41,200 nucleotides of DNA from a bacterium (GTDB lineage: Bacteria; SM23-81; DAOVCL01). A model generated the notes under the pieces. It worked only from the letters and a program-made list of their open reading frames with translations, did no database searches and was not told the origin of the DNA. The stretch covers positions 1 through 41,200 of the forward strand of contig JAOZPP010000020.1 of assembly GCA_029932675.1 (NCBI GenBank). The letters run 5' to 3'. Below, piece by piece: positions 10,253-30,373 of this stretch. Position 1 is the stretch's first letter. Each line of letters starts with the position of its first letter. The position numbers were made by a program, and so were the translations under genes.

Positions 10253-12511
10253 TTACCTTACCAGAACCATCTTCGTCGTCGAGGTGAATCCACCAGCAGT
10301 GATCTTACAGAGATAGGTTCCACTGGCTACCCTCTGACCCTGTTCATTCCTCCCATCCCAAGTAGCGGTGTAGGTTCCAGCCAGTTTATATTCGTTGATC
10401 AAGGTCTTGACCAACTGTCCCCTGAGGTTGTATACCCGCAGGGTTACCTGGCAGTCCTCAGGCACGCCAAACTCCACTGTAGTGGATGGGTTAAATGGGT
10501 TAGGATAGTTCTGGCGTAACTGGTAGCCCTCTGGCATCAGTTGCTGCATCTGCTCCTCCTCTACACCCACGCATACCGGGAGGCAGGTTGGACTACCGTC
10601 ACAGGTAGGACCTGCGGCACAGGTAGGCATCCCCGGAGTGCAAGTAAGGGGCGCACAGGTAGCCGCCCCATTGCAGGTGGGGCCTCCCGCGCAGGTGAGG
10701 GCGACACAGGTCTGGTTGCCATCACAAGTTGGCTGTGCTGGGCTACAAGTGGGCATAGCCGGATCACAGGTGGGGTTGACAACATCACAAGTCGGCATTG
10801 GCCCTCCACAGGTCACATCCTGGCAGGTGAAGTTAGGGGCACAGGTCTCGCTACCGTCACAGGTAGGTGATGCCGGATCGCAGGTAGGCATACCTGGGTC
10901 ACAGGTCTCGTATAATCCACAAGTATAATTTTCATCGCAGGTAAGATAACCAGTGCAAGTTTCGCTGCCATCGCAAGTTTCGCTGCCATCACAGGTAGGC
11001 GATGCCGGATCGCAGGTAGGCATACCCGGATCACAGGTCAGATAGTCTGGATCACAGGTGATAGTCCCGTCGCAGGTAATCATACCGTAACAAGTGGAGT
11101 AAGGCGCACAGGTCTGAGCCCCATCACAGGTAGCTCTACCATCACAGGTGACCATATCCGGATCACAGGTCACACTGCCGTCGCAGGTGGGTTGCTGGGG
11201 ATCACAGGTGGGGCTGCCATCACAGGTCTCGGTCATATCACAGGTCTCGCTACCGTCACAGGTAGGGCCACCCTGGCAGGTATTGTAACCTGTGCAAGTC
11301 AAACTTGCGTCACAGGTCTGGGTCCCATCACAGGTGGGGGACATATCACAGGTCTGGCTGCCGTCACAGGTAGGGCCACCCTGGCAGGTGTTGTAACCTG
11401 TGCAAGTTGGACTGGTGTCACAGGTCTCCACCCCTTCGCAGGTTTCATTGGGAGCACAGGTTGCCGATCCATCACAGGTCTGGTAGTCCTGACAGGTCGG
11501 ACTAGCATCACAGGTCTCCATGCCATCACAGGTGAGGTAGGGGGTACAAGTAAGGGCCTCACCCATACAGGTATGACTCCCATCACAGGTCACCTCTGTC
11601 CCTAAGCAGGTCTCGGACTGATTGCAGGTCGGTGTGCCATTGCAGGTCGGATAGCCTGAACAGGTGTTAGAAAGTGCACAGGTCTCGGTGCCGTCGCAGG
11701 TTGAGCCTCCATCACAGGTCGGACAGCCCTGACAGGTGGGACTATATGCATCGCAAGTGGGGGCATACGGATCGCAGGTTAGCTCGAAATTGTCGCAGGT
11801 ATACATATTTGGATCACAAGTCTGAACCCCTCCTATACACGTTGGCTGGCCGGGCTCACAGGTAAAATGATACAGACAAGTGGGGCCGTTGCTGTCGCAG
11901 GTGGGCATCGATGGATCACAGGTCTCGTACGGAAGGGGTTGACAGGTCTCCGTCCCATCACAGGTAGGACTACCAGCTTGACAGGTGTAGTTGGGGGAAC
12001 AGGTCTGCCCCTGGAGACAGGTCTCTGAGGTCCATTCGCAGGTAGGCATCGGCTCACAAGTGGGGAGGTAGGGCTCACAGGTAAGTTGAGGAGGGTTATA
12101 GGTGAGATTCCTTGCACAAGTATACCCAGCGTTATCGCAGGTAAAACTTCCATCACAGGTGGGTGCACCCTGTATACAGGTGAGATTCGGAGCGCAGGTT
12201 GCTCCACCAGTGCAGGTCTCTGTCCCATCACAGGTCGCACCAGCATAGGTGGGATTAAGGGGAGCCGGGGGGCTCCTATCGCCCGAGCGGGACATCCGGC
12301 AGACTTTACCCTGATGGCCCCGATTCGCGTTCATAACTGGAGGGGTATGAATTTGCTGCTCCAGGTTTGCTTTAGCCAACTCCAGGGAATGCTGAAAGAG
12401 CGGGGAACTCACTACCCTTTCATCCTCAGTCCTCGCCATGGAAAAGAGAAGGAGAACTGCCATAAGTGCGGGCAACCAAAGGATTACCGCCTTGCCTTTA
12501 TCAATTTTCAC
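10253..12511 (-). CDS. Secreted Thr-Cys tandem-repeat protein with FlgD-like C-terminal domain; function unknown
   Basis: 752 residues. An N-terminal signal segment (AVILWLPALMAVLLLFSMA) and a short linker precede residues 90-647, which consist of 87 TC dipeptides at intervals of mostly 6 or 7 residues (units such as TCDGSET, TCDASP, TCTGYN, TCDPGMP). The protein has about 90 cysteines. From C328 to C436 the spacing is exactly 6 residues, 18 times running. The end (from about residue 663) is a FlgD-like sorting domain: RQNYPNPFNPSTTVEFGV, WDGRNEQGQRVASGTYLC, TKMVLVR. The start is GTG with a very strong AAGGAGGTGA about 9 nt upstream. I do not recognise a family. The 6-residue Thr-Cys spacing is like the disulfide beta-helix of Tenebrio antifreeze protein; this is an analogy, not demonstrated homology. 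No CxxCH haem motif is present. Confidence 0.88.
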   Translation of the reverse strand: MKIDKGKAVILWLPALMAVLLLFSMARTEDERVVSSPLFQHSLELAKANLEQQIHTPPVMNANRGHQGKVCRMSRSGDRSPPAPLNPTYAGATCDGTETCTGGATCAPNLTCIQGAPTCDGSFTCDNAGYTCARNLTYNPPQLTCEPYLPTCEPMPTCEWTSETCLQGQTCSPNYTCQAGSPTCDGTETCQPLPYETCDPSMPTCDSNGPTCLYHFTCEPGQPTCIGGVQTCDPNMYTCDNFELTCDPYAPTCDAYSPTCQGCPTCDGGSTCDGTETCALSNTCSGYPTCNGTPTCNQSETCLGTEVTCDGSHTCMGEALTCTPYLTCDGMETCDASPTCQDYQTCDGSATCAPNETCEGVETCDTSPTCTGYNTCQGGPTCDGSQTCDMSPTCDGTQTCDASLTCTGYNTCQGGPTCDGSETCDMTETCDGSPTCDPQQPTCDGSVTCDPDMVTCDGRATCDGAQTCAPYSTCYGMITCDGTITCDPDYLTCDPGMPTCDPASPTCDGSETCDGSETCTGYLTCDENYTCGLYETCDPGMPTCDPASPTCDGSETCAPNFTCQDVTCGGPMPTCDVVNPTCDPAMPTCSPAQPTCDGNQTCVALTCAGGPTCNGAATCAPLTCTPGMPTCAAGPTCDGSPTCLPVCVGVEEEQMQQLMPEGYQLRQNYPNPFNPSTTVEFGVPEDCQVTLRVYNLRGQLVKTLINEYKLAGTYTATWDGRNEQGQRVASGTYLCKITAGGFTSTTKMVLVR
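10571..12244 (-). repeat. Coding minisatellite: 18/21-bp units encoding Thr-Cys repeats
   Basis: The plus strand shows 'atcacaggt'-type units (ACCTGTGAT in the coding sense) about every 18 or 21 bp across 1.7 kb. Higher-order copies are visible. The block at 11345-11404 recurs almost identically at 11237-11296 (108-bp offset). The block at 10973-11035 recurs at 10841-10903 (132-bp offset), encoding the same 21 residues. This points to growth by tandem duplication. Confidence 0.9.
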
Positions 12512-12626
12512 TCTTTTTCACCTCCTTTCCGTTGAATTTTGGGAATGTTTTCTCATACCATCCCCCTTTTTGGAGATTAAGATTCCCGGAAATCGCTCCA
12601 TAACCGCTAAGTTCACCGCCTCAGAA

Positions 12627-12910
12627 CAGGGGTTCTCACCCCTGAATTTTTGATGAGATTAACTCCTTAATGAACACAAAAAGCCGGGGCACTGACAAAA
12701 GAACTGGTGTCCCAATTCCTGGGTGGCCCGGCATTACAACAAAATCCCCCCCTACCTGATTTCCAAACACCCCTAAAACCGCGGCTTTGCATTCCTCCCC
12801 TTTCTTAAGGGTTAAAGACTACATCCCACATCAACTGCAAGCAATTTAGCAAATAACAATGTAAGATGGGAGTGGTTCATCAGTGAAATCTGAGGTGCTT
12901 TAACCCGACT
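12627..12910 (-). ncRNA. Structured 5' leader RNA of the Thr-Cys repeat gene (riboswitch-like)
   Basis: A good promoter at 12918-12946 puts the transcript start about 400 nt before the GTG. The leader contains, in order: a CCCTT/AAGGG hairpin, the block ATGCAAAGCCGCGGTTTT (12776-12793), an intrinsic-terminator hairpin (12678-12732), a perfect 7-bp stem CAGGGGT/ACCCCTG closed by a GAGA tetraloop (12627-12644), and then the strong ribosome binding site at about 12519-12531. GCAAAGCC followed later by GCCGGGCCACC recalls the core of class-I cyclic-di-GMP riboswitches, but I cannot fold the full aptamer, so the class is unassigned. Confidence 0.45.
12678..12732 (-). terminator. Intrinsic terminator/attenuator inside the leader
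   Basis: The outer stem GCCGGG (12732-12727) pairs with CCCGGC (12688-12683), with inner pairing around CCCA/TGGG, and is followed by TTTTT (12682-12678). It lies about 170 nt upstream of the start codon in the same transcript, as expected for an attenuator. Confidence 0.6.
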
Positions 12911-12917
12911 GAACTTA

Positions 12918-12946
12918 AATATACATCAAAAAGCCCATTTTGGCAA
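12918..12946 (-). promoter_or_regulatory. Sigma70-type promoter of the Thr-Cys repeat gene
   Basis: TTGCCA (12946-12941) and TATATT (12923-12918) are separated by exactly 17 nt, just beyond the stop of the upstream minus-strand gene. The spacing and -10 box are the same as in the promoter at 18172-18200. Confidence 0.7.
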
Positions 12947-18171: not shown

Positions 18172-18200
18172 TTGACAGAATGCCCCCAAAGCAGTATATT
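18172..18200 (+). promoter_or_regulatory. Near-consensus sigma70-type promoter upstream of the structured RNA
   Basis: TTGACA (18172-18177), a 17-nt spacer and TATATT (18195-18200) followed by TAAAC. It fires rightward toward the RNA at 18207-18333 and the secreted-protein gene at 18685. Confidence 0.75.
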
Positions 18201-18206
18201 TAAACT

Positions 18207-18333
18207 GGCAATTTTAAAGAGAGGTTAAAATGCCCAAAGCCACGGCTTTGATAGAATCCCCCCATAAGAGGTCTTATGGTGCGAGTTACATAAGGCTGAG
18301 TCAGGGAGTTTTTTGCCTGGATCAGCCTTTTTT
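18207..18333 (+). ncRNA. Structured small RNA or leader with intrinsic terminator
   Basis: Just after the promoter come three hairpins: CAAAGC/GCTTTG with loop CACG (18235-18250), CCATAAG/CTTATGG with loop AGGT (18262-18279), and the terminator (18292-18333). The first hairpin lies in ATGCCCAAAGCCACGG, the counterpart of ATGCAAAGCCGCGG in the leader of the Thr-Cys gene. Downstream, at about 18371-18384, the same GGAAAGGAGGTGA ribosome-binding sequence appears, but without a start codon at proper distance. It is either a riboswitch-like leader of the gene at 18685 or a separate about 127-nt RNA. Confidence 0.5.
18292..18333 (+). terminator. Intrinsic terminator of the structured RNA
   Basis: AAGGCTGA (18292-18299) pairs with TCAGCCTT (18322-18329); an inner CAGG/CCTG pairing lies within. 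A run of six T (18328-18333) follows the stem. Confidence 0.8.
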
Positions 18334-18421
18334 GGTGGCCGTTTTTGCCCGAAGGCGGAGACGAGTGAGAAGGAAAGGAGGTGACACCTGAGTAAACCTA
18401 TAGTTCAGAGGAAGAGAGGGG

Positions 18422-18478
18422 GTGATAAAGGATACTGCAGGCTCCTGTTCGCGAATATTCAGAACCTTTAATAATTAA
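18422..18478 (+). other. Very small open frame between the RNA terminator and the inverted-repeat element; doubtful
   Basis: GTG 18422 opens an 18-codon frame (MIKDTAGSCSRIFRTFNN) preceded by GAGGAAGAGAGGGG. It ends with TAA exactly at the edge of the inverted-repeat element, so it could be the stump of a gene interrupted by that element, or chance. There is no homology evidence. Confidence 0.15.
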
Positions 18479-18665
18479 CCCGGATTATTCACAAATTCAC
18501 AGCACCTCTCAAATCGCTGAGGCCTCTTGCTGGAGGGACTCCGCCTTAGCGGAGTCCTGAGGAAGCGGACAGACATAAATGTCTGTCCCTACGAAACAAA
18601 TACACAAATCATTGGCCTTGAAAAATTTATGCCAATTCATTTTCAGTTCATGAATAATTCGGGTT
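18477..18665. mobile_element. MITE-like element with terminal inverted repeats (copy 2), about 189 bp
   Basis: The left end AACCCGGATTATTCACAAA matches the reverse complement of the right end (AACCCGAATTATTCATGAA) at 16 of 19 positions. These termini match those of the element at 7231-7301. No transposase is encoded; the interior carries two perfect hairpins (18536-18588). The right end abuts the ribosome binding site of the gene at 18685. No convincing target-site duplication is seen. Confidence 0.6.
18536..18588. repeat. Two REP-like palindromes inside the element
   Basis: GGACTCCGC/GCGGAGTCC (18536-18557, loop CTTA) and GGACAGACA/TGTCTGTCC (18567-18588, loop TAAA) are both perfect 9-bp stems. 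The second, followed by CTACG, resembles dispersed intergenic palindromes found in many environmental bacterial genomes. Confidence 0.6.
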
Positions 18666-18684
18666 GAAATTAAAAGGAGAAAAA

Positions 18685-21600
18685 ATGAACAAGTTCAAAT
18701 TTGTGGGGCTGTTGGCTTTGGTGGGGGTTATTCTTTATGTTGGCTTGGGAATGGGGCAAGAATTGAAGATTTCCCCTTTGGCCAAGGGTGTCGGTCGGTC
18801 CATGACACTACAGGAGGATACGCTATGGTATTTCAAAGCCTGCTATGACTCCAACTATGCTCCCGCCGGTATGCCAGACTTCGATCAGAAGCAGGATAAC
18901 TGGACCAATCCTACTTCTGGAAAGTGGTCTTTCTGCGGACCAACAGCTTTGGCCAATTGCCTTTGGTGGCTTGACTCCAGGTTTGAGCATTGGTTGGCCA
19001 GGGTCAACGGAGGCCCACTTGGGCTTCCCGGCGACCAATATGACAGGTTCCCGTTGGTAAGGGATTATACCGACAACTTGGCTCAGGCCTATATCCCACC
19101 CAATCCTCCCCCAGGCACGAACAACGACGATCACGCTGCGGACAACGTGGACAATCCCAACACCACACCGTGGTCTCTATGGCCCCCAGGTGCTCCTCCT
19201 GGGCCGTATAATCCATTTGCCCCAGGTCTACAACCTATTCCGCAGTACCCCCAATGGGGTGAGCTTATTGAGAGGCTGGCATGGTGCTGCAACTGTGACG
19301 GGGCACAACAGGGAGGTGGTTGGGAGGGGACTTATGTCCACGATATGGAAAACTGCATAGACAATTGGCTGATGGCCGAGGGTCTGGATACACTCCTCTA
19401 TGAGCACACCGTAGATTGCAGCTGCTATTATGACCTCCCTTGGTTTATTGATGAGCAGATCCACAAGAGCCAAGATGTTATCCTCCTCCTGGGCTTCTGG
19501 TATAACGAAGGAGAGGTTTGGTATAGAGAGGGTGGCCACTATGTAACCGTTGCCGGTGTAGGCACGGATCCACTGGGCGGAACGATTCTGGCAATTTCTG
19601 ATCCATATTATGACAATGCTGAACCTGCTCCCCAAGGAAACGGAGGTCCCGGCTGCGTCCACAATTCCATCTATCAGGCTCATCCAACCCCCCATCCTGC
19701 TTCCCTCCACAATGATGCCGGCAATGCCTCTCACGATTGGTATGCTCTCGCCCCTACCGCGCCCCCTCATTGGGCATATCATTGGATGCTCGTAGGTTAT
19801 CCTGGCCAATACAAGTGGGATAACTTCTTCGGGCAGAACGTTCCCAAGGGGCTAGAAAAATATCAGGATGTTAAAAGAGAGCACAAGAACAAACAGGGGT
19901 TTTTTACGCTCATCGAATATGCGGTGGTCGTCTCTCCCTATCCTGACCACGGCGATGCTCCAGCCCCCTATCCCGATGCCCATCATTCTGACTGGACTGA
20001 GGAATGGCTGGGCGCAAAGGTAAGTGGTGATATGGCGCCCCGCTTAGTGAACCTGGATACTTATGACGACGGGGTAACCTTCCTTACCCCTCTCTGCCCC
20101 GGTGAAGAGGGAAGCCTTAAAGTAACCATCTCGGTGAGGGACAGGTTTGCCTGCGAGGCTCACGGCGGGCGCTATGATGGTCAGCATCAGCTCTATCTCC
20201 ACGGCTGGATAGACTGGAGCGGAGACGGGAACTGGGATGATCCGGGTGAGAACATCTTCTGTGGCGTCCCATTTGACCCTTCAACCTGGGCTTCTAACAG
20301 CAATATCTATATCACTACTTTCACCGTTCCTACTGATGCCCAGATTGGCGACACCTGGGCCAGGTTCAGGTTGGATTATAATCAAAGCCTAAATGATCCG
20401 GCGGGACAAGCCTATTGTGGTGAGGTGGAAGATTATCCCGTGGAGATAATGGAGAAGCAATCATCTGTGGTTATTAACGAGTTTATTGCCAAAGGGACTG
20501 AGTGGATAGAGCTTTACAACTACGGCGCCTGCCCGGTGACGATGACCGGTTGGTATGTGCAGGATGACGGCGGGACCGACAACTCCATCAGCGGTGTTAC
20601 CATACCTGCCGGCGGCTACTACTCCTGGAACACCACCCTAAACCTCGGCACCAGCGGGGATTACATAGAGCTCTACGACGGCAGCAAGGCTCTCATTGAC
20701 CGAGTGGCTTATGGCAACAAAGGTGGATGCCCACTTCCTCCATATGGCTCAAATATTTCGGCATGTCGGGCTCCCAATGGATCAGACACTGATGATGATG
20801 CCAGGGACTGGACCCTGGATCGTTCATCCACTCGGGATGCGGCCAATGACGCCCCAGCGCCTCAATTGGGTTCCTCCTTGATCCTCAACGAGATCGACCC
20901 TTATCCTTCTGCCGACGGTGACTCCCTGGAACTCTACAACCCCACTGGTTCAGCAGTGGATATCACCAATTGGTGGTTCTCCGATGGAGATGATATCATT
21001 GACCTACCCAGCGGAGGGACAGTCCCTGCAGGAGGATGGTTAGTCCTGGCTGAGGGCTCTGGCGATTGGCCCGATGGCCAGTGTGATTTCTCCAGTGGTG
21101 ATGTGGCTTATCTCTTCAATGCCAGTGGAGTGAGGGTTGACCAGTTAGGCTGGTATGGAGAATACAACGACCACTCCTTCCAGAGGTGTCCGGATGGGAA
21201 CGGTCCAAACGACGGTTACGATTGGACATCTTCCGGTGGGGACACAAGCCTCTTTGACACCACCGCCACCTGGGGAGCAGCCAACTGCGTCTACTGTGAG
21301 CCCCCCCAGCCTCCCTCAAATCTCATCTGTGAGGCAACTGATACCTGTATTGTCCTAAATTGGACAAACACATCGGAGTATGACAGCGTTGCCGTATACA
21401 GAAGTTGGGGTGGAGTTTCGGAAATGCTCTTAGTGATTCTACCAGGAGGTTCAGAGAGTTACCACGATGCCACCTGTTGTTGCAGCGGCAACTACGACTA
21501 CCATGTGACCGGTTTTCATTGTGACGAGGAGAGTGGGCCAAGCGATACCTGTTGGGTCTATAAACTGGGCGAGGTCCAATATTCTTGGGACTTCAACGAG

Positions 21601-23181
21601 AGCGACCAGGGTTGGATGCACTATCCAGATCCCCCTGGAGTGGACTCCTGGCAATGGGGTATGCCCACATACGGGCCTGAGCCGGGAATGCCAACCTGTC
21701 CCGACACAGGAGGAACTCCCGTGCCCCTGACCAACTGCTGGGCTACCATTAGCCAAGGTCCGTACTCGCCCTTCTCCTGCTGTCGCCTGTTCTCGCCCCC
21801 TGTCCAGCTCGATAGCTGTGGTGCTCTCTTAGAGATCTGTCACTGGTATGCGATGACACCTGAACCTCCGGATGGTGGAAATGTCAAGGTTTCCACCGAT
21901 GATGGAGTGACCTGGGAGCTGATTACACCCTGTCAAGGCTATCCTTGCCCGTTTCTGGACACCGAGTGCGATAAGATAGTTGGTCTGCCCGGTTACTCCG
22001 GAATGAGCCCTGGTTGGGTGCTTGACTACTTCGATCTCGCTGCACTGGGTTATGGTGACTCCACCGTTCAGATAGCCTTCGACTTCGGCTCAAATGACAA
22101 CCCCGATGCGTGGCCAGGGTGGTATATCAAATGGGCCAAGATCTACCATTGTCCGGTAGTTGGAGGAGCATTCATCAGGGGTGACTATGACGAGAACGGG
22201 CAATTATTGACCAATGACCCTCTGATGGAATTGCAATTTATCTTTGGTGTCCCTGGTGCCACTCCGCCGTCTTGTGAGGATGCTGCCGACTATGATGATG
22301 ACGGTAAAATTTTGACCAATGATCCACTGATGGCTTTGCAATTTATCTTTGGGGTCCCAGGTTCTGTCCCTCCTCCACCTCCCTATGGTCCATTCCCAGG
22401 CGGCTGTGGGCCGGATCCAACCGATGATGACTTGACTTGCGCAGACCATGCTTGTCAACATTTGAAAGCTACGCCTTCTTATAAGCCTTCTGTAAGTGTG
22501 TCTAATGCCCCTAACAAGCTGTTGCTGGAAGAAGCTGAGTTTATTAATGGCAAAGTAAGGGTTCCCTTTGACCTGACAATTAATGAGCCTGTATGTGGTT
22601 TTGACATTTCAGTTACCTATAATACTTCTTCCTTACGGTTTGAGAAGGTTGTTGGTGGAGATGGGTATGACTTCTGGGCTGTGGACACTCGTCAGGCAGG
22701 TGTAGTGCGGATAGGAGGGGTACCTGATATAGAGATGGCCAAGCTGCTGGAGCCTGGAACGTACAGAGTTGGTGAAATGATGTTTGAGGTAAAGGAGATG
22801 GGTAATATGGGTCTGAGGTGGAAGAAGGCAGAAGTGTATGGAGCTCAAGTACAGCCTCTGTCTGTAGAGTGGGTAGTAAAAACTGGGGAAAGCATATTGC
22901 CTACCCAGTTTGCCTTAGAGCAGAACTATCCTAACCCATTCAATCTGCAGACAGCGATCAGGTATCAGCTCCCCGAGGATTGCCGGGTGACCCTGGAAAT
23001 TTACAACTTACTGGGAGAGAAGGTGAAAACCCTGATCAGCGGCGAGCAGAAGGCCAACTACTACACTGCCTATTGGGATGGAAAGGATGCAGAAGGCAAG
23101 GAAATCTCCAGTGGAATCTACTTCTACAAACTTCAGGCTGGCAGCTTTACTCAGACCAGAAAGCTAGTCATCCTCAAGTAG
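18685..23181 (+). CDS. Giant secreted multidomain protein: C39-like cysteine-peptidase fold, GEVED, two lamin-tail domains, dockerin, cohesin-like and FlgD-like sorting domain
   Basis: 1498 residues. After a signal peptide (FKFVGLLALVGVILYVGLG) comes a C39/papain-like module with FCGPTALANCLWWL (Cys about 84), GGHYVTVAGVG (His about 285) and AISDPYYDN (Asp about 306). A GEVED domain ends near residue 585 (YCGEVEDYPVEI). Two lamin-tail domains (INEFIAKGTEWIELYN; LNEIDPYPSADGDSLELYN) span about 592-870, then an Fn3-like stretch and a jelly-roll-like region (about 965-1158). A type-I-dockerin-like pair of calcium loops (GDYDENGQLLTND; ADYDDDGKILTND; 1162-1228), a cohesin-like beta region (about 1268-1395) and the FlgD-like end (EQNYPNPFNLQTAIRYQL, tail RKLVILK) complete it. 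ATG 18685 follows AGGAGA; an in-frame TTG at 18664 lies in the mobile element and is rejected. Peptidase activity is inferred from the residue order. Confidence 0.88.
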   Translation: MNKFKFVGLLALVGVILYVGLGMGQELKISPLAKGVGRSMTLQEDTLWYFKACYDSNYAPAGMPDFDQKQDNWTNPTSGKWSFCGPTALANCLWWLDSRFEHWLARVNGGPLGLPGDQYDRFPLVRDYTDNLAQAYIPPNPPPGTNNDDHAADNVDNPNTTPWSLWPPGAPPGPYNPFAPGLQPIPQYPQWGELIERLAWCCNCDGAQQGGGWEGTYVHDMENCIDNWLMAEGLDTLLYEHTVDCSCYYDLPWFIDEQIHKSQDVILLLGFWYNEGEVWYREGGHYVTVAGVGTDPLGGTILAISDPYYDNAEPAPQGNGGPGCVHNSIYQAHPTPHPASLHNDAGNASHDWYALAPTAPPHWAYHWMLVGYPGQYKWDNFFGQNVPKGLEKYQDVKREHKNKQGFFTLIEYAVVVSPYPDHGDAPAPYPDAHHSDWTEEWLGAKVSGDMAPRLVNLDTYDDGVTFLTPLCPGEEGSLKVTISVRDRFACEAHGGRYDGQHQLYLHGWIDWSGDGNWDDPGENIFCGVPFDPSTWASNSNIYITTFTVPTDAQIGDTWARFRLDYNQSLNDPAGQAYCGEVEDYPVEIMEKQSSVVINEFIAKGTEWIELYNYGACPVTMTGWYVQDDGGTDNSISGVTIPAGGYYSWNTTLNLGTSGDYIELYDGSKALIDRVAYGNKGGCPLPPYGSNISACRAPNGSDTDDDARDWTLDRSSTRDAANDAPAPQLGSSLILNEIDPYPSADGDSLELYNPTGSAVDITNWWFSDGDDIIDLPSGGTVPAGGWLVLAEGSGDWPDGQCDFSSGDVAYLFNASGVRVDQLGWYGEYNDHSFQRCPDGNGPNDGYDWTSSGGDTSLFDTTATWGAANCVYCEPPQPPSNLICEATDTCIVLNWTNTSEYDSVAVYRSWGGVSEMLLVILPGGSESYHDATCCCSGNYDYHVTGFHCDEESGPSDTCWVYKLGEVQYSWDFNESDQGWMHYPDPPGVDSWQWGMPTYGPEPGMPTCPDTGGTPVPLTNCWATISQGPYSPFSCCRLFSPPVQLDSCGALLEICHWYAMTPEPPDGGNVKVSTDDGVTWELITPCQGYPCPFLDTECDKIVGLPGYSGMSPGWVLDYFDLAALGYGDSTVQIAFDFGSNDNPDAWPGWYIKWAKIYHCPVVGGAFIRGDYDENGQLLTNDPLMELQFIFGVPGATPPSCEDAADYDDDGKILTNDPLMALQFIFGVPGSVPPPPPYGPFPGGCGPDPTDDDLTCADHACQHLKATPSYKPSVSVSNAPNKLLLEEAEFINGKVRVPFDLTINEPVCGFDISVTYNTSSLRFEKVVGGDGYDFWAVDTRQAGVVRIGGVPDIEMAKLLEPGTYRVGEMMFEVKEMGNMGLRWKKAEVYGAQVQPLSVEWVVKTGESILPTQFALEQNYPNPFNLQTAIRYQLPEDCRVTLEIYNLLGEKVKTLISGEQKANYYTAYWDGKDAEGKEISSGIYFYKLQAGSFTQTRKLVILK

Positions 23182-23238: not shown

Positions 23239-23299
23239 CATCTCATCAGGAATCGTCTTAGAGGAAATGAGGATTCCAATTGATTAGGAGATGATGGTG

Positions 23300-26200
23300 A
23301 TGGAAAAATCACAAAAATTGTTAGCTTACTTGAGTATAGGTTTACTAGTAACAATCCCCTTTTTTACCAGTTCCACGCTGAAGGCAGATAACCTAACCAT
23401 AACGCTCAATGCTGGTGAGTATCGGATTATCAATGTGGATAAAGGGCAAGATATAATTAAAATGAATGGTTTCAGTAACCTCTTGGTCCCTGGTAAACCT
23501 ATGCTGCCGGCAAAGGGATTTATGATAGCCCTTCCTCCTGGGGCAGAGGTTTCTTCAGTCATTACTATAGGCACAAGTCCTGTTGAAATTAAAGGAATCC
23601 ACAAGATAAAACCAGCACCACCCTTTTTGCCCTCCAACAACCGGAAAGACACAGTCAAAAAATGCCTGCAAGAATGGCAGCAAAACTACGATGCTACCTA
23701 TTCTTCAGATCAGATCTACCCCCAGGATGTGGGGAAATATTTGGGAGTCGGAGGTTTGAGGAAATATACCTTTGTCAGGGTGGCATACTTTCCTTTCTCC
23801 TATCGCCCCAAATCGGGCAGGCTAACTTTTAATCCCTCCCTCATAGTCTCCATTGATTATAACTTTCCCTCATCAGGTAGCAAAGAAGTAGAGCGATTGC
23901 TGTCAGATACGATGGCAGACGATCGAGCTTCCCGGCTGTTTGTCAATTATTCCCAGGCAAAGACCTGGTATACTCCTGAGAAAGGGGAAGCCCCAAAACA
24001 AAGTTACGATTATGTAATCATCACCACAGAGACTCTGCAGGATGCAGTGAATCCGTTCGCCTCTTGGAAACAGGCGATAGGTTATAGGGTTAATGTGGTC
24101 ACCCCTTCCTGGATAGAAGCCAACTACTCTGGAGTTGACCTACAAGAGAAGATAAGAAATTTCCTCATCGATAAGTATCCCCAATCCCAATGGGGGATCG
24201 AATATGTCCTCTTAGTTGGTGACATCGACGCGGTCCCTATGCGCTACTGTTATCCAGACCCATCTGATCACGATCCAAGTTCGGATTACTGCACACCCAC
24301 GGACTATTACTACGCCGACCTCACTGGAGACTGGGATTCAGACGGGGACGGATATTACGGGGAGTATGGGGAAGATAACGTCGATTTTGTTCCCGAAGTC
24401 CATGTTGGGCGAATCCCCTGGAGTGACCCCACCACCGTGACTTCTATTTGTCAAAAATTGGTTAACTTTGAAAATGACAACTCCTCCTGGAAGAATAATG
24501 CCTTACTCCTGGGTGCAATGAGCAACTATGCCAATGAAGACTCTTCAGAATGGGACAGAACTGATGGGGCAAACCTAATGGAGGAAATGATCTCCGATAT
24601 GCCCACCGGTTGGAGTTACACCAAGATGTATGAAAAGGCGGGACTTAACCCTTGCCCATATTCTTGTGACTATCCTATTACCCATGCCAATGTGGTGAAC
24701 GACTGGTCGTCAAATGATTACGGTATCGTCAACTGGTGGGCCCACGGTGGCCAGACCGGTGCTTGGAGGAAATGGTGGGCCTGGGATGATGGGGATGGAG
24801 TACCAGAAACTGAGAGCCCGGACGAGATAAGCTGGCAGGCATTTATCAGTAACTCAGACGTCTCCTCCTTGGATGATGATCACCCTTCCTTGATCTTTTC
24901 CTGCTCCTGCAACAACGGCTGGCCAGAGGTGGACAATCTGGGTAAGGAACTCCTGAAACATGGATCGTCTGGAATAGTGACCTCCACCAGGATCTCCTGG
25001 TATACAATTGGTTGGTTAGATGAAAGCTGGGGGGGGAATGCCTCCATCGATTACTACTTCTTTCACTATCTGATCACTAACGATGAGAAAGTTGGGGATG
25101 CCCTTTTTGATTCCAAAGTTTACTATCTCAATAACTTCTTCTGGTGGGGGGAGGCGAGTCAACAAAATATGTTTGACTTTTGCCTCTATGGTGACCCGGC
25201 ATTAAAGAGAGGAGGGGTTCCATCAGCGGATCTGTTTATCCGAGGTGATGCCAACTGTGACGGGAGGGCAGATATCTCAGATGTAGTCTACAATCTCAAC
25301 TCGTTCTTTGGCTTTCTCCCCTCTCCTCCTTGTATGGACGCAGCAGATGCCAATGATGACGGACAATGGAACATTCCTGATGGCTTTACTCTATATCTCT
25401 CTCAATTTGAAGGCTACCCACCACCACCACCACCTTATCCTTATCCCGGTCCTGACCCAACTGAAGATGAACTCACCTGTCCTGGTGGATGCCCTTATCC
25501 TCCTGATACTACCGTCTCACCCTCAGATACTTTTATGATAGTAGATACACAAAGATTACAAGGGGATAGCACCTCTTCCTTCATAATACTCGGAACCTCA
25601 CATTTGAATAATGCGGGTTACTCTATAGGCTTTTGTTTTAACCCCTCACAGTTAAGAGTGGATAGTGTGGATATACTTTTCAATTATTCAGGACAGGATA
25701 ATGCGATATGGAACAATGAGGAGGGCTGGTGCAAAATAGGTGCCTTTGCCATTGTTGGGGTATACAATTATAACCCTCCCTTCGCCCATAAACCCTTGGC
25801 TACCGTTTACACTACCATCTCGCCCAACGTGGCTATGGAAGAGACCCTCTGGCTCGATTTAAAGAACGGTTGTGGAGGGATTACTAACCTCTTTTCCGAT
25901 GAAGTTGGAAATTCTACCCTTGCTACCCTTATAGATGGCCGAATCCTTCCCCCACATTTCGCGTTCCAAACCCAACCCACTTTCCCTTTGGCAATGGCGG
26001 AAAAAGAAACTCTGGCGATTATCGTCATAGCTAATGATTTCTTATCTCAAAATTTCACCTTGAATGTGAAGGCACATCCCCCTAATTTCTTTTCCTGGAC
26101 TGGACCGGTATTTAGCACAACGGGGACTGCAGTCGGAACCCTAACCGTCATCCCTCATAAGGGTGATAAAGGAGTATATTACCCTTCTTTTTATCTCAGT

Positions 26201-27730
26201 GATACTTTAGGGGACGCTGTCTTAGGCCCTTATGAATTAGATGTCTGGCCTTGCGACCAGTCCCCCTTAAGCGGAAAGCTCTCTGGGTTGCTATCGAAGA
26301 AGAACAGCCCTTACCGAGTTGTGGGGGATATCATCGTACCTGCTGGGGATAGCCTAATAATCGAACCAGGGGTAGAACTAAGATTTGGCTGGTTCAACTC
26401 TCCAGAGAAACATTGCTTCAAGATTAGGGGAATCCTAAAGGCACTGGGAACTGAGACTTATCCCATTACCTTCACTTCCAACCAGTTTATACCCAGAATC
26501 GGCGATTGGGAATCCATTGAGTTTGATAGTGCAAATGCCTCAACCAAACTGAGCCACTGCAGAATTGAATATGCCGAAAAAGGACTTTACTGCAAGTATT
26601 CATCACCTCATATAGAAAAGAACCTTATTGATGGAAACCTTTATGGAATATATTGCGACCATTCAACTCCCCTCATCCTCAACAACGAGATATCCAGAAA
26701 TATTTATGGAGTTTATTGCTCCTCATCTTCGCCACTGATTAGGGAAAACGAGATAACTCAAAATTCTAATCCAGGAATTACCTGCACAGGCGAACTATCT
26801 TCACCCTTAATAGAGCATAATGAAATCATCTCAAATGGAAGCAATTTCTTCTTAAATAGAGGGGAAATTGAGTGCAAGTATAAGTCCTCCCCTATAGTGC
26901 AAGGGAATTTAATCCAGGGGAAGTTAGGAATTTCTGGCACTGAATCCTGTTCACCACTGATTTATAACAATCTGATTTGTGTTAAGGAATGCGGAGTGAG
27001 TTTTTGGCAATGGAGCGGAGAAAGCATGATAAGCAACATAGTTAACAATACAATTATAGGTAAAGGAGGAGAAGCTTTTTTAGGAATTAGTTGTGGCCAA
27101 GGGGTTTATTCTATAGCTAACAATATTATCACCGGTTATCAAGCTGGTATTGATCAACGTGAAAGCTCCTTACGCATAAATTACAACGACGTTTGGGGGA
27201 ATGGAACCAACTTCTCAAACTGTGCTCCTGGAGTTGGCGACACAACCTGGGGAGAGAACCCCAATGGCATCCCTTGTGACAGTTTCTACAATATTATCAG
27301 AAACCCACTCTTCTGCGATCCTGACAGCGGGGATTACCATTTGGCCAAAAACTCCCCCTGTGTAGGCGCTGGTCAAGACAGCTTGGGCAATCCGGTAGAC
27401 ATCGGAGCCTTTCCAGTAGGCTGCCCTCCTATTGGCATTGAGAGGGAAAGAAGGGCGAAGATCCCTCAGAAGTTCTCCCTCTCATCCAACTACCCAAATC
27501 CGTTTAATCCGGTTACTCAGATCAGATATGCACTTCCGCAGGGGTGCAGGGTAAGATTGGAGATATACAACATTCTGGGTCAAAAGGTAGTGTGCTTAGT
27601 GGATAGGGAGCAAACTCCCGGATACAAGACAGTTTCGTGGAATGCAAAGGATATGAGTTCTGGCATCTACTTTTACCACATTCATGCTGGCAACTTCACC
27701 CAGACCAGGAAGATGGTCGTCCTCAAGTAG
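23300..27730 (+). CDS. Secreted gingipain-like C25 cysteine peptidase with dockerin-like, cohesin-like, beta-helix and FlgD-like domains
   Basis: 1476 residues. A signal peptide is followed by a C25 propeptide-like region (NLTITLNAGEYRII; PGKPMLPAKGFMIALPPGAEV). The peptidase runs from about residue 235 to 640: YDYVIITTETLQDAVNPF, YVLLVGDIDAVPMRY, PEVHVGRIPW, the His motif NWWAHGGQTG (His about 482), and IFSCSCNNGW with the probable catalytic Cys at about 537. Then come a dockerin-like segment (RGDANCDGRADISD, about 650-710), a cohesin-like region, a right-handed beta-helix with many 'N.I..N..GI.C' turns (about 1005-1350), and the FlgD-like end (SNYPNPFNPVTQIRYAL, tail RKMVVLK). Four start codons lie in a row (ATG ATG GTG ATG); ATG 23300, 9 nt after AGGAG, is best spaced. 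It is likely surface-anchored or released after cleavage of its tail. Confidence 0.9.
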   Translation: MEKSQKLLAYLSIGLLVTIPFFTSSTLKADNLTITLNAGEYRIINVDKGQDIIKMNGFSNLLVPGKPMLPAKGFMIALPPGAEVSSVITIGTSPVEIKGIHKIKPAPPFLPSNNRKDTVKKCLQEWQQNYDATYSSDQIYPQDVGKYLGVGGLRKYTFVRVAYFPFSYRPKSGRLTFNPSLIVSIDYNFPSSGSKEVERLLSDTMADDRASRLFVNYSQAKTWYTPEKGEAPKQSYDYVIITTETLQDAVNPFASWKQAIGYRVNVVTPSWIEANYSGVDLQEKIRNFLIDKYPQSQWGIEYVLLVGDIDAVPMRYCYPDPSDHDPSSDYCTPTDYYYADLTGDWDSDGDGYYGEYGEDNVDFVPEVHVGRIPWSDPTTVTSICQKLVNFENDNSSWKNNALLLGAMSNYANEDSSEWDRTDGANLMEEMISDMPTGWSYTKMYEKAGLNPCPYSCDYPITHANVVNDWSSNDYGIVNWWAHGGQTGAWRKWWAWDDGDGVPETESPDEISWQAFISNSDVSSLDDDHPSLIFSCSCNNGWPEVDNLGKELLKHGSSGIVTSTRISWYTIGWLDESWGGNASIDYYFFHYLITNDEKVGDALFDSKVYYLNNFFWWGEASQQNMFDFCLYGDPALKRGGVPSADLFIRGDANCDGRADISDVVYNLNSFFGFLPSPPCMDAADANDDGQWNIPDGFTLYLSQFEGYPPPPPPYPYPGPDPTEDELTCPGGCPYPPDTTVSPSDTFMIVDTQRLQGDSTSSFIILGTSHLNNAGYSIGFCFNPSQLRVDSVDILFNYSGQDNAIWNNEEGWCKIGAFAIVGVYNYNPPFAHKPLATVYTTISPNVAMEETLWLDLKNGCGGITNLFSDEVGNSTLATLIDGRILPPHFAFQTQPTFPLAMAEKETLAIIVIANDFLSQNFTLNVKAHPPNFFSWTGPVFSTTGTAVGTLTVIPHKGDKGVYYPSFYLSDTLGDAVLGPYELDVWPCDQSPLSGKLSGLLSKKNSPYRVVGDIIVPAGDSLIIEPGVELRFGWFNSPEKHCFKIRGILKALGTETYPITFTSNQFIPRIGDWESIEFDSANASTKLSHCRIEYAEKGLYCKYSSPHIEKNLIDGNLYGIYCDHSTPLILNNEISRNIYGVYCSSSSPLIRENEITQNSNPGITCTGELSSPLIEHNEIISNGSNFFLNRGEIECKYKSSPIVQGNLIQGKLGISGTESCSPLIYNNLICVKECGVSFWQWSGESMISNIVNNTIIGKGGEAFLGISCGQGVYSIANNIITGYQAGIDQRESSLRINYNDVWGNGTNFSNCAPGVGDTTWGENPNGIPCDSFYNIIRNPLFCDPDSGDYHLAKNSPCVGAGQDSLGNPVDIGAFPVGCPPIGIERERRAKIPQKFSLSSNYPNPFNPVTQIRYALPQGCRVRLEIYNILGQKVVCLVDREQTPGYKTVSWNAKDMSSGIYFYHIHAGNFTQTRKMVVLK

Positions 27731-27748: not shown

Positions 27749-27785
27749 CAAGGGGGGGTGAAAGGAATTTTTTCACCCCCCCTTG
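27749..27785 (+). terminator. Hairpin terminator after the C25 peptidase gene
   Basis: A 14-bp perfect stem, CAAGGGGGGGTGAA / TTCACCCCCCCTTG, followed by TTTCG. A second smaller hairpin (CCCTTGT/ACAAGGG) overlaps its left arm. Confidence 0.7.
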
Positions 27786-27859
27786 TTTCGTTAAGAAAGC
27801 AGTTAAATCCATTTTCTGTCTGCTTCCATCGAGCTCTCACCTATTCAAGGAGGAGAATT

Positions 27860-30373
27860 ATGTTTCAGAAAAGTGTATGGAGAACTTTTTCTCTATCTGT
27901 CAGCCTATCTTTCTTACTTATCCCAACATCTCATCTAACTGCAGCAAATAAAGCCACTTTTAGCATAAAGGGAAATGTAAGAAAGCCGATTATCATCCCG
28001 GCTTCACTTGAGGAGTTGGAGCAAAGGGCTGCAGAAAGCCCAGACCGTATCCCTCTTGGACCAGTGGCTAACACCAACGGGGGGGCAAAGGGGCTGGATT
28101 GGAGGTTCCTGGGGCCAAAGCCAATTCTGAACGAATACTGGTCTGGATATGCCGATGCCTCTGGCCGCGTCTCCTCAATTATTGTTGATCCCTTGGATGC
28201 TCACAGAGCATACATAGCAGGAGCCCAGGGTGGGGTCTGGAGGACCACCGATGGGGGTATAAGCTGGACCCCCCTCACCGACCATCTCTCCTCCCTTGCC
28301 TCGGGGGCCTTAGCATTTGATCCCCTCAACCCCGATGTAATCTACTATGGAACTGGGGAGCAACATTATTCTGGGGACAGCTTCTATGGGGATGGGTTGT
28401 TCAAGACAACAGATGGGGGAACAACCTGGAGCAAGATTGCCACCAAGGCCACCGTAGGCAGCTATATAGCGCGCATCATTGTAAAACCTGCCAACTCGGA
28501 CACCATCCACTTGGCCAGCGATCGGGGCTATCTGCGCAGCACAGATGGAGGAAATTCCTGGAGCCTCATTTTGAATCCATCCCAATGCAACGACCTGGCA
28601 GTTAGCCCTATGACCCCAAATGTGGTCTTTGCTGCCTTTTTAAGAGAAGGTATCTACAGATCGACTAATAGTGGAGCTGACTGGGTTAAATTGACCAATG
28701 GGTTACCGTCTGGTGGTTTCGCACGTATAAATATGGCCATCTCCACAAGTGGCAATGTGCTATACGCCAGTTTTGTAAATGACACCACTGGTGGTCTCTT
28801 AGGAATGTATAAAACCACTGATGGAGGAGATAGTTGGTTTAATCTTCCCAATACCCCCAATTACCTTGGAGGTCAGGGCTGGTATGACAACTGTATCATC
28901 GTCGATCCTACAGATTCCAACATCTGTTATGCTGGCGGGGTATTCCCTTATGGGGGCGATATCTATGGCCTAATCAGGACCACTGACGGGGGGAACAGTT
29001 GGGCGGATATCACCATCGGGATTGACGGTAGCCAACTGCATCCGGACCAACACTGTTTGGCAATTGGGCCTGATGGCACCCTCTGGGTGGGCAATGACGG
29101 CGGGGTTTGGAAGACAACCGATAATGGACAGCACTGGATAAATTTGAACAACAATTTAGGTCTCACCCAGTTCTATACCTTGGGCATCCATCCCACTGAT
29201 TCCACATTTCTCCTGGGGGGCAATCAAGATAATGGAACGGTGCGTTACGAAGGGAATCTGGGTTGGCCTCAAGTTATGGGAGGAGATGGAGGACCAGTAG
29301 CTATAGAATGGGACAGCCCAAATATTTACTACACCACCTATGTCCGGATGACCTATCTCACCAAGTGGGACAATGGAACCTATATAGCCGATGTCACAGG
29401 GCCTTGGTCTGGCGAGAGGGCCAGTTGGTGCAATGGGCCCCTAGTGGTTGATCCAAATCAGCCCAACACCCTCCTGGTGGGCACCTATCGGGTATGGCGC
29501 ACCACAGATAGTGGTGCAAGCTGGGATTCCATAAGCAATGATCTGACCGGTGGCGGAGTGCTACGAGCCCTCGCCGTAGCCCAAGGGAACTCCAACATCA
29601 TCTACACCGGCAGCAGCGATGGTCGGGTCTATCTTACCACAGATGGTGGAGCAACCTGGAACCCAAGATATAGCGGTTTGCCCTGGGCTCCGATTCCCGA
29701 TATCGTCCTTCACCCAAGCAATTGGCAGATTGCCTATCTCTGTGTGGACCGATCCAGCGGGGGAAGGGTCTATAGGACAACCAATGCTGGGGTAGACTGG
29801 ACCGACATCACCGGAGATCTGCCCAACGGGTTGCGGGGAATCTCCTTGACCATAAACTTCTCCACCCCCTCACCCCTCCTATTCCTGGGCACAGATTATG
29901 GGGTCTACTTCTCCCCCAACAATGGCACCAACTGGACCAAGGAAGGGGACAACCTTCCCAGCTTAGCAATCTATGACCTTGGCTATGATGTCCATAATCA
30001 CCTCCTGGTAGCAGCCACCCATGGCAGGGGTATGTGGCGGGCGACGGTCAGCGATACTATCGGGATCCAGGGAGACCAGAACTTAGCTCAGTTGCCCCAG
30101 GGCTTCTCCCTCTCCCAGAATTACCCCAACCCTTTCAATGCCACTACCCTTATCCGCTACGCAGTTCCGGCGGTCAGCGGTCAGCAATCAACCGTCAGCT
30201 TAAAAATTTACAACATCTTGGGACAAAAGGTAGCCACCTTAGTTAATGAGAAACAACCCCCTGGCTATAGAGCTGTGAGCTGGGATGCCGGGGATATGGC
30301 CTCGGGCATCTATTTTTATCGGCTCCAGGCCGGTGAATTTGTGCAGACGAAGAGGCTCCTACTGCTCAAGTAG
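27860..30373 (+). CDS. Secreted BNR/Asp-box (sortilin/sialidase-type) propeller protein with FlgD-like sorting domain
   Basis: 837 residues from ATG 27860, which follows AAGGAGGAG at ideal distance; upstream codons of the same frame run through the terminator hairpin of the preceding gene and are excluded. A signal peptide (SLSVSLSFLLIPTSHLTAA) is followed by at least ten Asp-box turns with the pattern 'S/T-x-D-G-G-x-x-W' (for example RTTDGGISW, KTTDGGTTW, RSTDGGNSW, LTTDGGATW) over about residues 60-730. This repeat number fits one or two VPS10/BNR-type propellers. No sialidase arginine triad is recognisable, so enzymatic activity is not claimed. The end is FlgD-like: SQNYPNPFNATTLIRYAV, WDAGDMASGIYFYR, tail KRLLLLK. 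It is the last gene of the plus-strand secreted-protein series. Confidence 0.9.
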   Translation: MFQKSVWRTFSLSVSLSFLLIPTSHLTAANKATFSIKGNVRKPIIIPASLEELEQRAAESPDRIPLGPVANTNGGAKGLDWRFLGPKPILNEYWSGYADASGRVSSIIVDPLDAHRAYIAGAQGGVWRTTDGGISWTPLTDHLSSLASGALAFDPLNPDVIYYGTGEQHYSGDSFYGDGLFKTTDGGTTWSKIATKATVGSYIARIIVKPANSDTIHLASDRGYLRSTDGGNSWSLILNPSQCNDLAVSPMTPNVVFAAFLREGIYRSTNSGADWVKLTNGLPSGGFARINMAISTSGNVLYASFVNDTTGGLLGMYKTTDGGDSWFNLPNTPNYLGGQGWYDNCIIVDPTDSNICYAGGVFPYGGDIYGLIRTTDGGNSWADITIGIDGSQLHPDQHCLAIGPDGTLWVGNDGGVWKTTDNGQHWINLNNNLGLTQFYTLGIHPTDSTFLLGGNQDNGTVRYEGNLGWPQVMGGDGGPVAIEWDSPNIYYTTYVRMTYLTKWDNGTYIADVTGPWSGERASWCNGPLVVDPNQPNTLLVGTYRVWRTTDSGASWDSISNDLTGGGVLRALAVAQGNSNIIYTGSSDGRVYLTTDGGATWNPRYSGLPWAPIPDIVLHPSNWQIAYLCVDRSSGGRVYRTTNAGVDWTDITGDLPNGLRGISLTINFSTPSPLLFLGTDYGVYFSPNNGTNWTKEGDNLPSLAIYDLGYDVHNHLLVAATHGRGMWRATVSDTIGIQGDQNLAQLPQGFSLSQNYPNPFNATTLIRYAVPAVSGQQSTVSLKIYNILGQKVATLVNEKQPPGYRAVSWDAGDMASGIYFYRLQAGEFVQTKRLLLLK

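Follow-up and report, generated by a model that had tools for sequence, protein, structure and literature searches.

The plus strand of the 41,200-nucleotide window (the whole stretch of DNA analysed here) carries at 18172–18333 a genuine regulatory-looking leader RNA that is driven by its own promoter and ended by an intrinsic terminator. Judged from sequence and predicted folds, this 18.2-kb leader is with about even probability a strongly diverged relative of the c-di-GMP-I (GEMM-I) riboswitches. It opens with a sigma-70-type promoter, TTGACA-17-TATATT (18172–18200; −35 at 18172–18177, −10 at 18195–18200), that has 11 of the 12 consensus letters and from whose position RNA synthesis should start at about 18206–18208. 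The RNA predicted from about 18207 contains four hairpins. Hairpin 1 (18207–18234, GGCA-A-UUUUAA/UUAAAA-UGCC) is the counterpart of the GEMM P2 with its 5′ GGCAA, while hairpin 2 (18235–18250, CAAAGC-CACG-GCUUUG), which contains AAAGCCACGG, has 6 bp and a CACG loop in the minimum-free-energy fold. Hairpin 3 (CCAUAAG-AGGU-CUUAUGG) is predicted at 18262–18279, and the last is the intrinsic terminator (18292–18333; −19.1 kcal/mol), with 13 bp in two helices followed by six T, which is absent from the list of a simple terminator scanner because of the scanner's 3–8 nt loop rule. The leader folds at −42.4 kcal/mol (z −3.47), and none of 200 shuffled sequences folded as well. Downstream lies a Shine–Dalgarno-like string, GGAAAGGAGGTGA, at 18372–18384 (+). 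The promoter, the hairpin at 18235–18250, the terminator and this string had been proposed in an earlier note on this DNA; all four are present, the string as an exact match. With up to one mismatch the string occurs at two places in the window against 0.16 expected, but it is the complement of the 16S rRNA 3′ end, so that its sharing between leaders is expected of strong starts. No gene with an ATG, GTG or TTG start follows the string at 18372: only short frames lie there, and the gene begins at 18685.

We propose, with about even confidence, that 18172–18333 is a transcription attenuator, most likely a strongly diverged GEMM-I leader, that acts as an ON switch before a type IX operon. The fold of 18207–18299 (−23.6 kcal/mol) favours pairing of CGGCUUUG (18243–18250) with UAAGGCUG (18291–18298), enclosing hairpin 3. 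Since the UAAGGCUG strand is common to the 5′ arm of the terminator, the predicted antiterminator and the terminator are mutually exclusive, and hairpin 2 and the CGGCUUUG/UAAGGCUG helix likewise exclude each other in the predicted folds. Once the 3′ arm of the terminator exists, the terminator wins in the predicted fold. The RNA would thus start near 18207 with GGCAA and present a P2-like hairpin, the junction word CAAAGCCACGG and a P3-like arm bearing hairpin 3. Unaided, it would form the terminator at 18292–18333 and transcription would stop. A ligand holding the junction would allow CGGCUUUG to pair with UAAGGCUG, leaving the terminator without its 5′ arm, and the operon from 18685 would be transcribed. 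The ON direction is proposed on the plan of the paralogous leaders of this genome, and the ligand would by kinship be c-di-GMP, although the pocket is altered and the leader may be a relic. c-di-GMP is plausible because the genome (G000) has six GGDEF matches, five of them over the cut-off. The predicted antiterminator pairing exceeds chance only modestly, as 146 of 1,000 shuffles paired as well as CGGCUUUG/UAAGGCUG and 41 of 1,000 as well as a second possible antiterminator, GGUCUUAUG with CAUAAGGCU, which is the best pairing. The pilM c-GAMP riboswitch of Geobacter is described in PMC9262584 as an ON switch with a mutually exclusive aptamer and terminator, the same plan as in the paralogs of this genome and in the present proposal. 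The terminator of the pilM switch takes up the ligand-pairing C (PMC9262584), the counterpart of which is not assignable in the 18.2-kb leader.

The junction word CAAAGCCACGG (18235–18245) agrees in every letter with the Rfam consensus junction of c-di-GMP-I (GEMM-I, RF01051) riboswitches. The leader also shares with that class the GGCAA start, a P2-like hairpin, a P3-like arm and a downstream terminator platform. RNAs of the class open with G20-G21-C22, which pairs with the GC preceding A47, and their P2 contains a 3x3 internal loop. Here the GGCAA lies at 18207–18211, and one of the two closing pairs is non-standard in the alignment to R3, a model of the complete aptamer built from 12 ordinary GEMM-I RNAs, three of them from this genome. 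Unlike RF01051 members, the 18.2-kb leader has no Rfam score, an altered P2 internal loop and neither a GNRA loop on P2 nor the P3 3′ strand CCGGGCU. The GNRA tetraloop on the P2 of GEMM-I RNAs docks to P3; a 7-nt loop, AGAGAGG, stands in its place here. The P3 is eroded, and the shifted CGGCUUUG/UAAGGCUG helix is predicted where a P3 of AGCC-A-CGG/CCG-GGCU is expected, the P3 3′ strand being placed at 18282–18289 by R3 and at 18291–18298 by the fold. The junction, CAAAGCcacgG, includes A47 in a numbering mapped by our own alignment; the ligand-pocket residues of c-di-GMP-I riboswitches are G20, A47 and C92, and A47 is needed for binding (PMC9049102). The history of GEMM and its c-AMP-GMP variants is treated in PMC7266159.

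GEMM-I-like leaders exist elsewhere in this genome. RF01051 gives two matches over the cut-off (C85 and C103) and eight weaker ones, several of which look real by sight, with ACAAAGCC-CGG...GATAGCCGGGCTGC followed by a terminator with the 5′ arm CCGGGCTGC. The related model c-di-GMP-I-GGC (RF03167) is the best for two leaders, of which C85 is over and C105 below the cut-off. R1, a model of nine lineage leaders aligned here with the window sequence excluded, detects 12 places in G000 and two in G001 at E<1e-14, the nine training leaders being among these 14, and gives one weaker match (E 6.2e-6) in G003. The P3 of the family covaries, with a two-sided change in 4 of 10 pairs and a score of 0.214 versus 0.141 in shuffles, in a set of 19 members that includes genomes of other phyla. 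Three types were grouped by eye. Type A (C19, C11, C109, C2, C34 and C62 of G001) has a long P2 arm of approximately GACCTGCGGGAGAGTGTGGCC and, in all but C62 of G001, the P3 tip AAGCTGGAGT-YTAAT; type B (two leaders each at C93 and C84, and those at C3 and C46) has a different long arm. Type C (C2:8933, C112, C90 and C57 of G001) has a similar P3 tip and terminator and mostly lacks the CAAAGCC-CGG junction. The conserved type A arm replaces the usual short tetraloop hairpin (loci L009, L010, L022, L078, L079 and L082) and perhaps makes a different P2–P3 contact. The type C loci (L084, G000:C2:8933; L086, C112:8604; L087, C90:366; L071, G001:C57) keep CTGGAGTCCAATAGGA...CCGATYTGC and the terminator, and the leader at C2:8933 has a type A leader as its tandem neighbour. 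At C93 the two leaders are almost the same in sequence and separated by 1.1 kb. The long-arm leaders (C19, C11, C109, C2, C34, C93, C84 and C3) share with the 18.2-kb leader the promoter type, the junction, the terminator (except in one C93 copy) and partly the type IX cargo; unlike in that leader, their P2 arm is long and their P3 (AGCC-CGG/CCG-GGCU) intact.

The 18.2-kb leader precedes a gene for a 1,498-aa secreted protein with lamin-tail and GEVED domains and a type IX sorting tail (18685–23181, +), followed on the same strand by a C25-family peptidase with a type IX tail (23291–27730) and a third type IX tail protein (27758–30373). The three may form one operon reached by read-through to 18685. 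The other leader of the window, at about 12.8 kb on the minus strand, precedes a 752-aa Thr/Cys-rich protein with a type IX tail (10253–12511, −) that is built of short TCDG-type repeats. Both window leaders thus precede type IX genes, and the window itself is rich in such genes. At 5 of the 12 strong leaders of G000 (C105, C11, C3, C2 and C85) the first long gene downstream encodes a type IX tail, the cargo of C3 and C11 being under the Pfam tail cut-off yet having an FlgD_ig match and a typical end; two of the remaining leaders are at contig ends (C19 and C34) and five have other genes (C93 twice, C84 twice and C109). G000 has 124 type IX tail matches (E≤0.001), counted as matches and not as genes, and enrichment of type IX cargo behind the leaders is only an impression. 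Leaders of types B and C also precede toxin–antitoxin-like genes (L007, G000:C93, 468 and 1561; L081, C84; L109, C90), and an Unstab_antitox, a PemK-like, a DUF3368 and a HicB-like antitoxin gene are found behind the leaders at C93, C84 and C90.

In a wider interpretation, which we advance tentatively and consider rather improbable, the GEMM-I scaffold has radiated in the genus and given rise to considerably more than twelve paralogous leaders (types A, B and the mostly junction-less C), whose P2 and P3 arms have been rebuilt and which are wired to type IX cargo and toxin–antitoxin modules. The 18.2-kb leader would be an extreme branch in which the P3/antiterminator is re-registered and the pocket so changed that it senses another ligand. 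If the preferred GEMM-I reading is right, an uncultured lineage would switch type IX-secreted surface proteins by c-di-GMP-type riboswitches, and the leaders would form a natural series of paralogs, from canonical to barely recognisable, in which changes of aptamer arms, pocket and ligand could be studied. Literature searches found no paper on a c-di-GMP-I riboswitch with type IX secretion and none on riboswitches with Zixibacteria.

Both R3 and R1 rank the 18.2-kb leader first in the window. Over the whole window R3 places 18197–18293 (+) first of 26 matches (11.1 bits, E 0.13) and R1, with filters off, 18222–18314 (+) first of 29 (12.4 bits, E 0.24); on the 213 nt of the leader the E-values are 0.00065 and 0.0012, respectively. 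The two models are not independent because both reward the junction. Chance scores in 34.5 kb of control loci reached 13.6 bits with R3 and 13.4 bits with R1, the R1 maximum falling on a chance occurrence of the word, and genome-wide R3 has four unassigned matches of at least 11.1 bits (C61, C70, C104 and C27). R3 gives scores of 11.9 to 33 to the lineage leaders that it matches and 52.6 to that of G003, with no match to the type C leaders or C46. The 18.2-kb leader is absent from the results of the genome-wide searches by RF01051, R1 and R3 at E up to 10; it is below the RF01051 gathering score, an Rfam search of 601 bases gave it no match at E up to 10, and it is not matched by RF03167. R2, a model of the 3′ half (P3) only that was meant to score both window leaders, misses it, the best R2 match in the window lying elsewhere. 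No known Rfam family reaches its gathering score in the window, and candidates at 18530–18690, preQ1-II, flavi_FSE and others, were rejected as far below threshold. The stretch TATMTTTAAAC-N-GGCAA is common to the 18.2-kb leader and the confirmed type A member at C11. The pattern TATMTTTAAACN{1,8}GGCAA occurs at only two places in four genomes (18195–18211 and C11; controls 0), in a search that was not blind because the likeness had been noticed beforehand. A DNA search of the four genomes for an orthologous leader gave short chance matches only; homologs of the gene at 18685 are present in G002 and G003, with none in G001.

Much of this also bears on a serious competitor, which we somewhat doubt, that the leader is an attenuator of unrelated origin, or simply a leader with a terminator, and CAAAGCCACGG a chance word, found also in intergenic repeats and coding genes. 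The word CAAAGCCRCGG occurs twice in the window (0.00 expected, 100 shuffles) and 16 times in the genome, against two for the reversed control, mostly outside leaders: four copies belong to the two window leaders and the two leaders at C93, whereas seven of the other 12 lie inside open frames of at least 100 codons and five outside. At these 12 copies R3 has no match at the word itself, which speaks for kinship of the 18.2-kb leader; R1 awards 13.4 bits to one of them, which speaks for a chance word. Since CACAAAGCCACGGG recurs in similar-looking intergenic stretches (L121, L124, L129 and L133), probably as a repeat, the word is by itself an unreliable marker. An unrelated attenuator would further agree with the failure of R2 and Rfam to detect the 18.2-kb leader, and with a likeness to the 12.8-kb leader that is within chance (below). 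However, promoter, 5′ GGCAA, spacing and junction co-occur in the GEMM order, and the first rank in the window with both R3 and R1 argues for kinship.

As a sub-case of the preferred GEMM-I reading, the leader could be a decayed riboswitch, GEMM-derived and non-switching, separated from its gene by a repeat insertion and yielding a short terminated RNA only. The eroded P3 and the Shine–Dalgarno string without a gene are consistent with decay, as is the presence of a palindromic repeat in the stretch 18384–18685. The palindrome, GGACAGACATAAATGTCTGTCC (18567–18588, +), belongs to a dispersed intergenic repeat that recurs at the C11 leader (L010, 1895–1916), with variants near other leaders. The near-consensus promoter, strong terminator and strong folding are not those of a decaying element, and we regard this sub-case as fairly unlikely.

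The earlier note had instead suggested a multi-copy RNA family controlling secreted-protein genes, represented by the two window leaders; taken as a new two-member family, these would be unrelated to any known class. The 12.8-kb leader (12678–12946, −) has a promoter at 12946–12918, CAAAGCCGCGG at 12789–12779, a terminator at 12732–12678 (by eye) and GGAAAGGAGGTGA at 12530–12518. The claimed identity of order holds, and that of the −35 element does not, the promoter being TTGCCA-17-TATATT. Compared without promoter and Shine–Dalgarno string, the two leaders share as their longest common stretch, with up to one mismatch, the 11-mer CAAAGCCRCGG, and among 60 dinucleotide-shuffled pairs 32 reached a likeness of 11 nt. 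The resemblance of the two leaders does not exceed chance, and the pair alone therefore makes no family. The genome-wide search suggested in the note brought up no further copies: ATGC-N(0-3)-AAAGCCRCGG recovers the two window leaders only (control 0), which favours a two-member family, as does the common order of elements. Yet the likeness is limited to the junction word, which is that of GEMM, and no compensatory changes were seen between the two, so that a separate family of these two is very improbable. A multi-copy family partly preceding secreted-protein genes does exist, as the GEMM-I-type leaders elsewhere in the genome, but it is not demonstrated by the two window copies.

The 12.8-kb leader scores below the 18.2-kb leader with the models. 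R1 misaligns it, R2 places it at 12719–12795 (6.9 bits, E 3.5) and R3 at 12719–12808 (5.9 bits, E 4.8). Inspection by eye shows AGCC-G-CGG and CCG-GGCC in it, GCCGGGCC doubling as the terminator arm, which is the family plan. Its folds are not better than those of shuffles (z 1.37, −0.71 and 0.82), and 904 of 1,000 shuffles match its antiterminator pairing.

A leader-peptide attenuator, in which the position of a ribosome on the 53-codon open frame crossing the leader (18230–18391, +; SD-like AGAGAGG at 18218–18224, ATG at 18230) picks the hairpins, is highly unlikely in spite of the frame and its suitable Shine–Dalgarno spacing, as no series of regulatory codons precedes the terminator, the frame continues through it and the 12.8-kb leader has a different frame relative to the shared word.

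One further copy of CAAAGCCACGG lies in a leader-like stretch behind the tmRNA (Rfam RF00023) at about 770–985 of C79 (L126). It was rejected as a sister of the 18.2-kb leader, Rfam and R3 giving no GEMM match there. Upstream in the stretch are 12 nt, ATAGGTGGTTTA, complementary to its terminator arm, and the open frame that follows the stretch begins in a signal-like manner.
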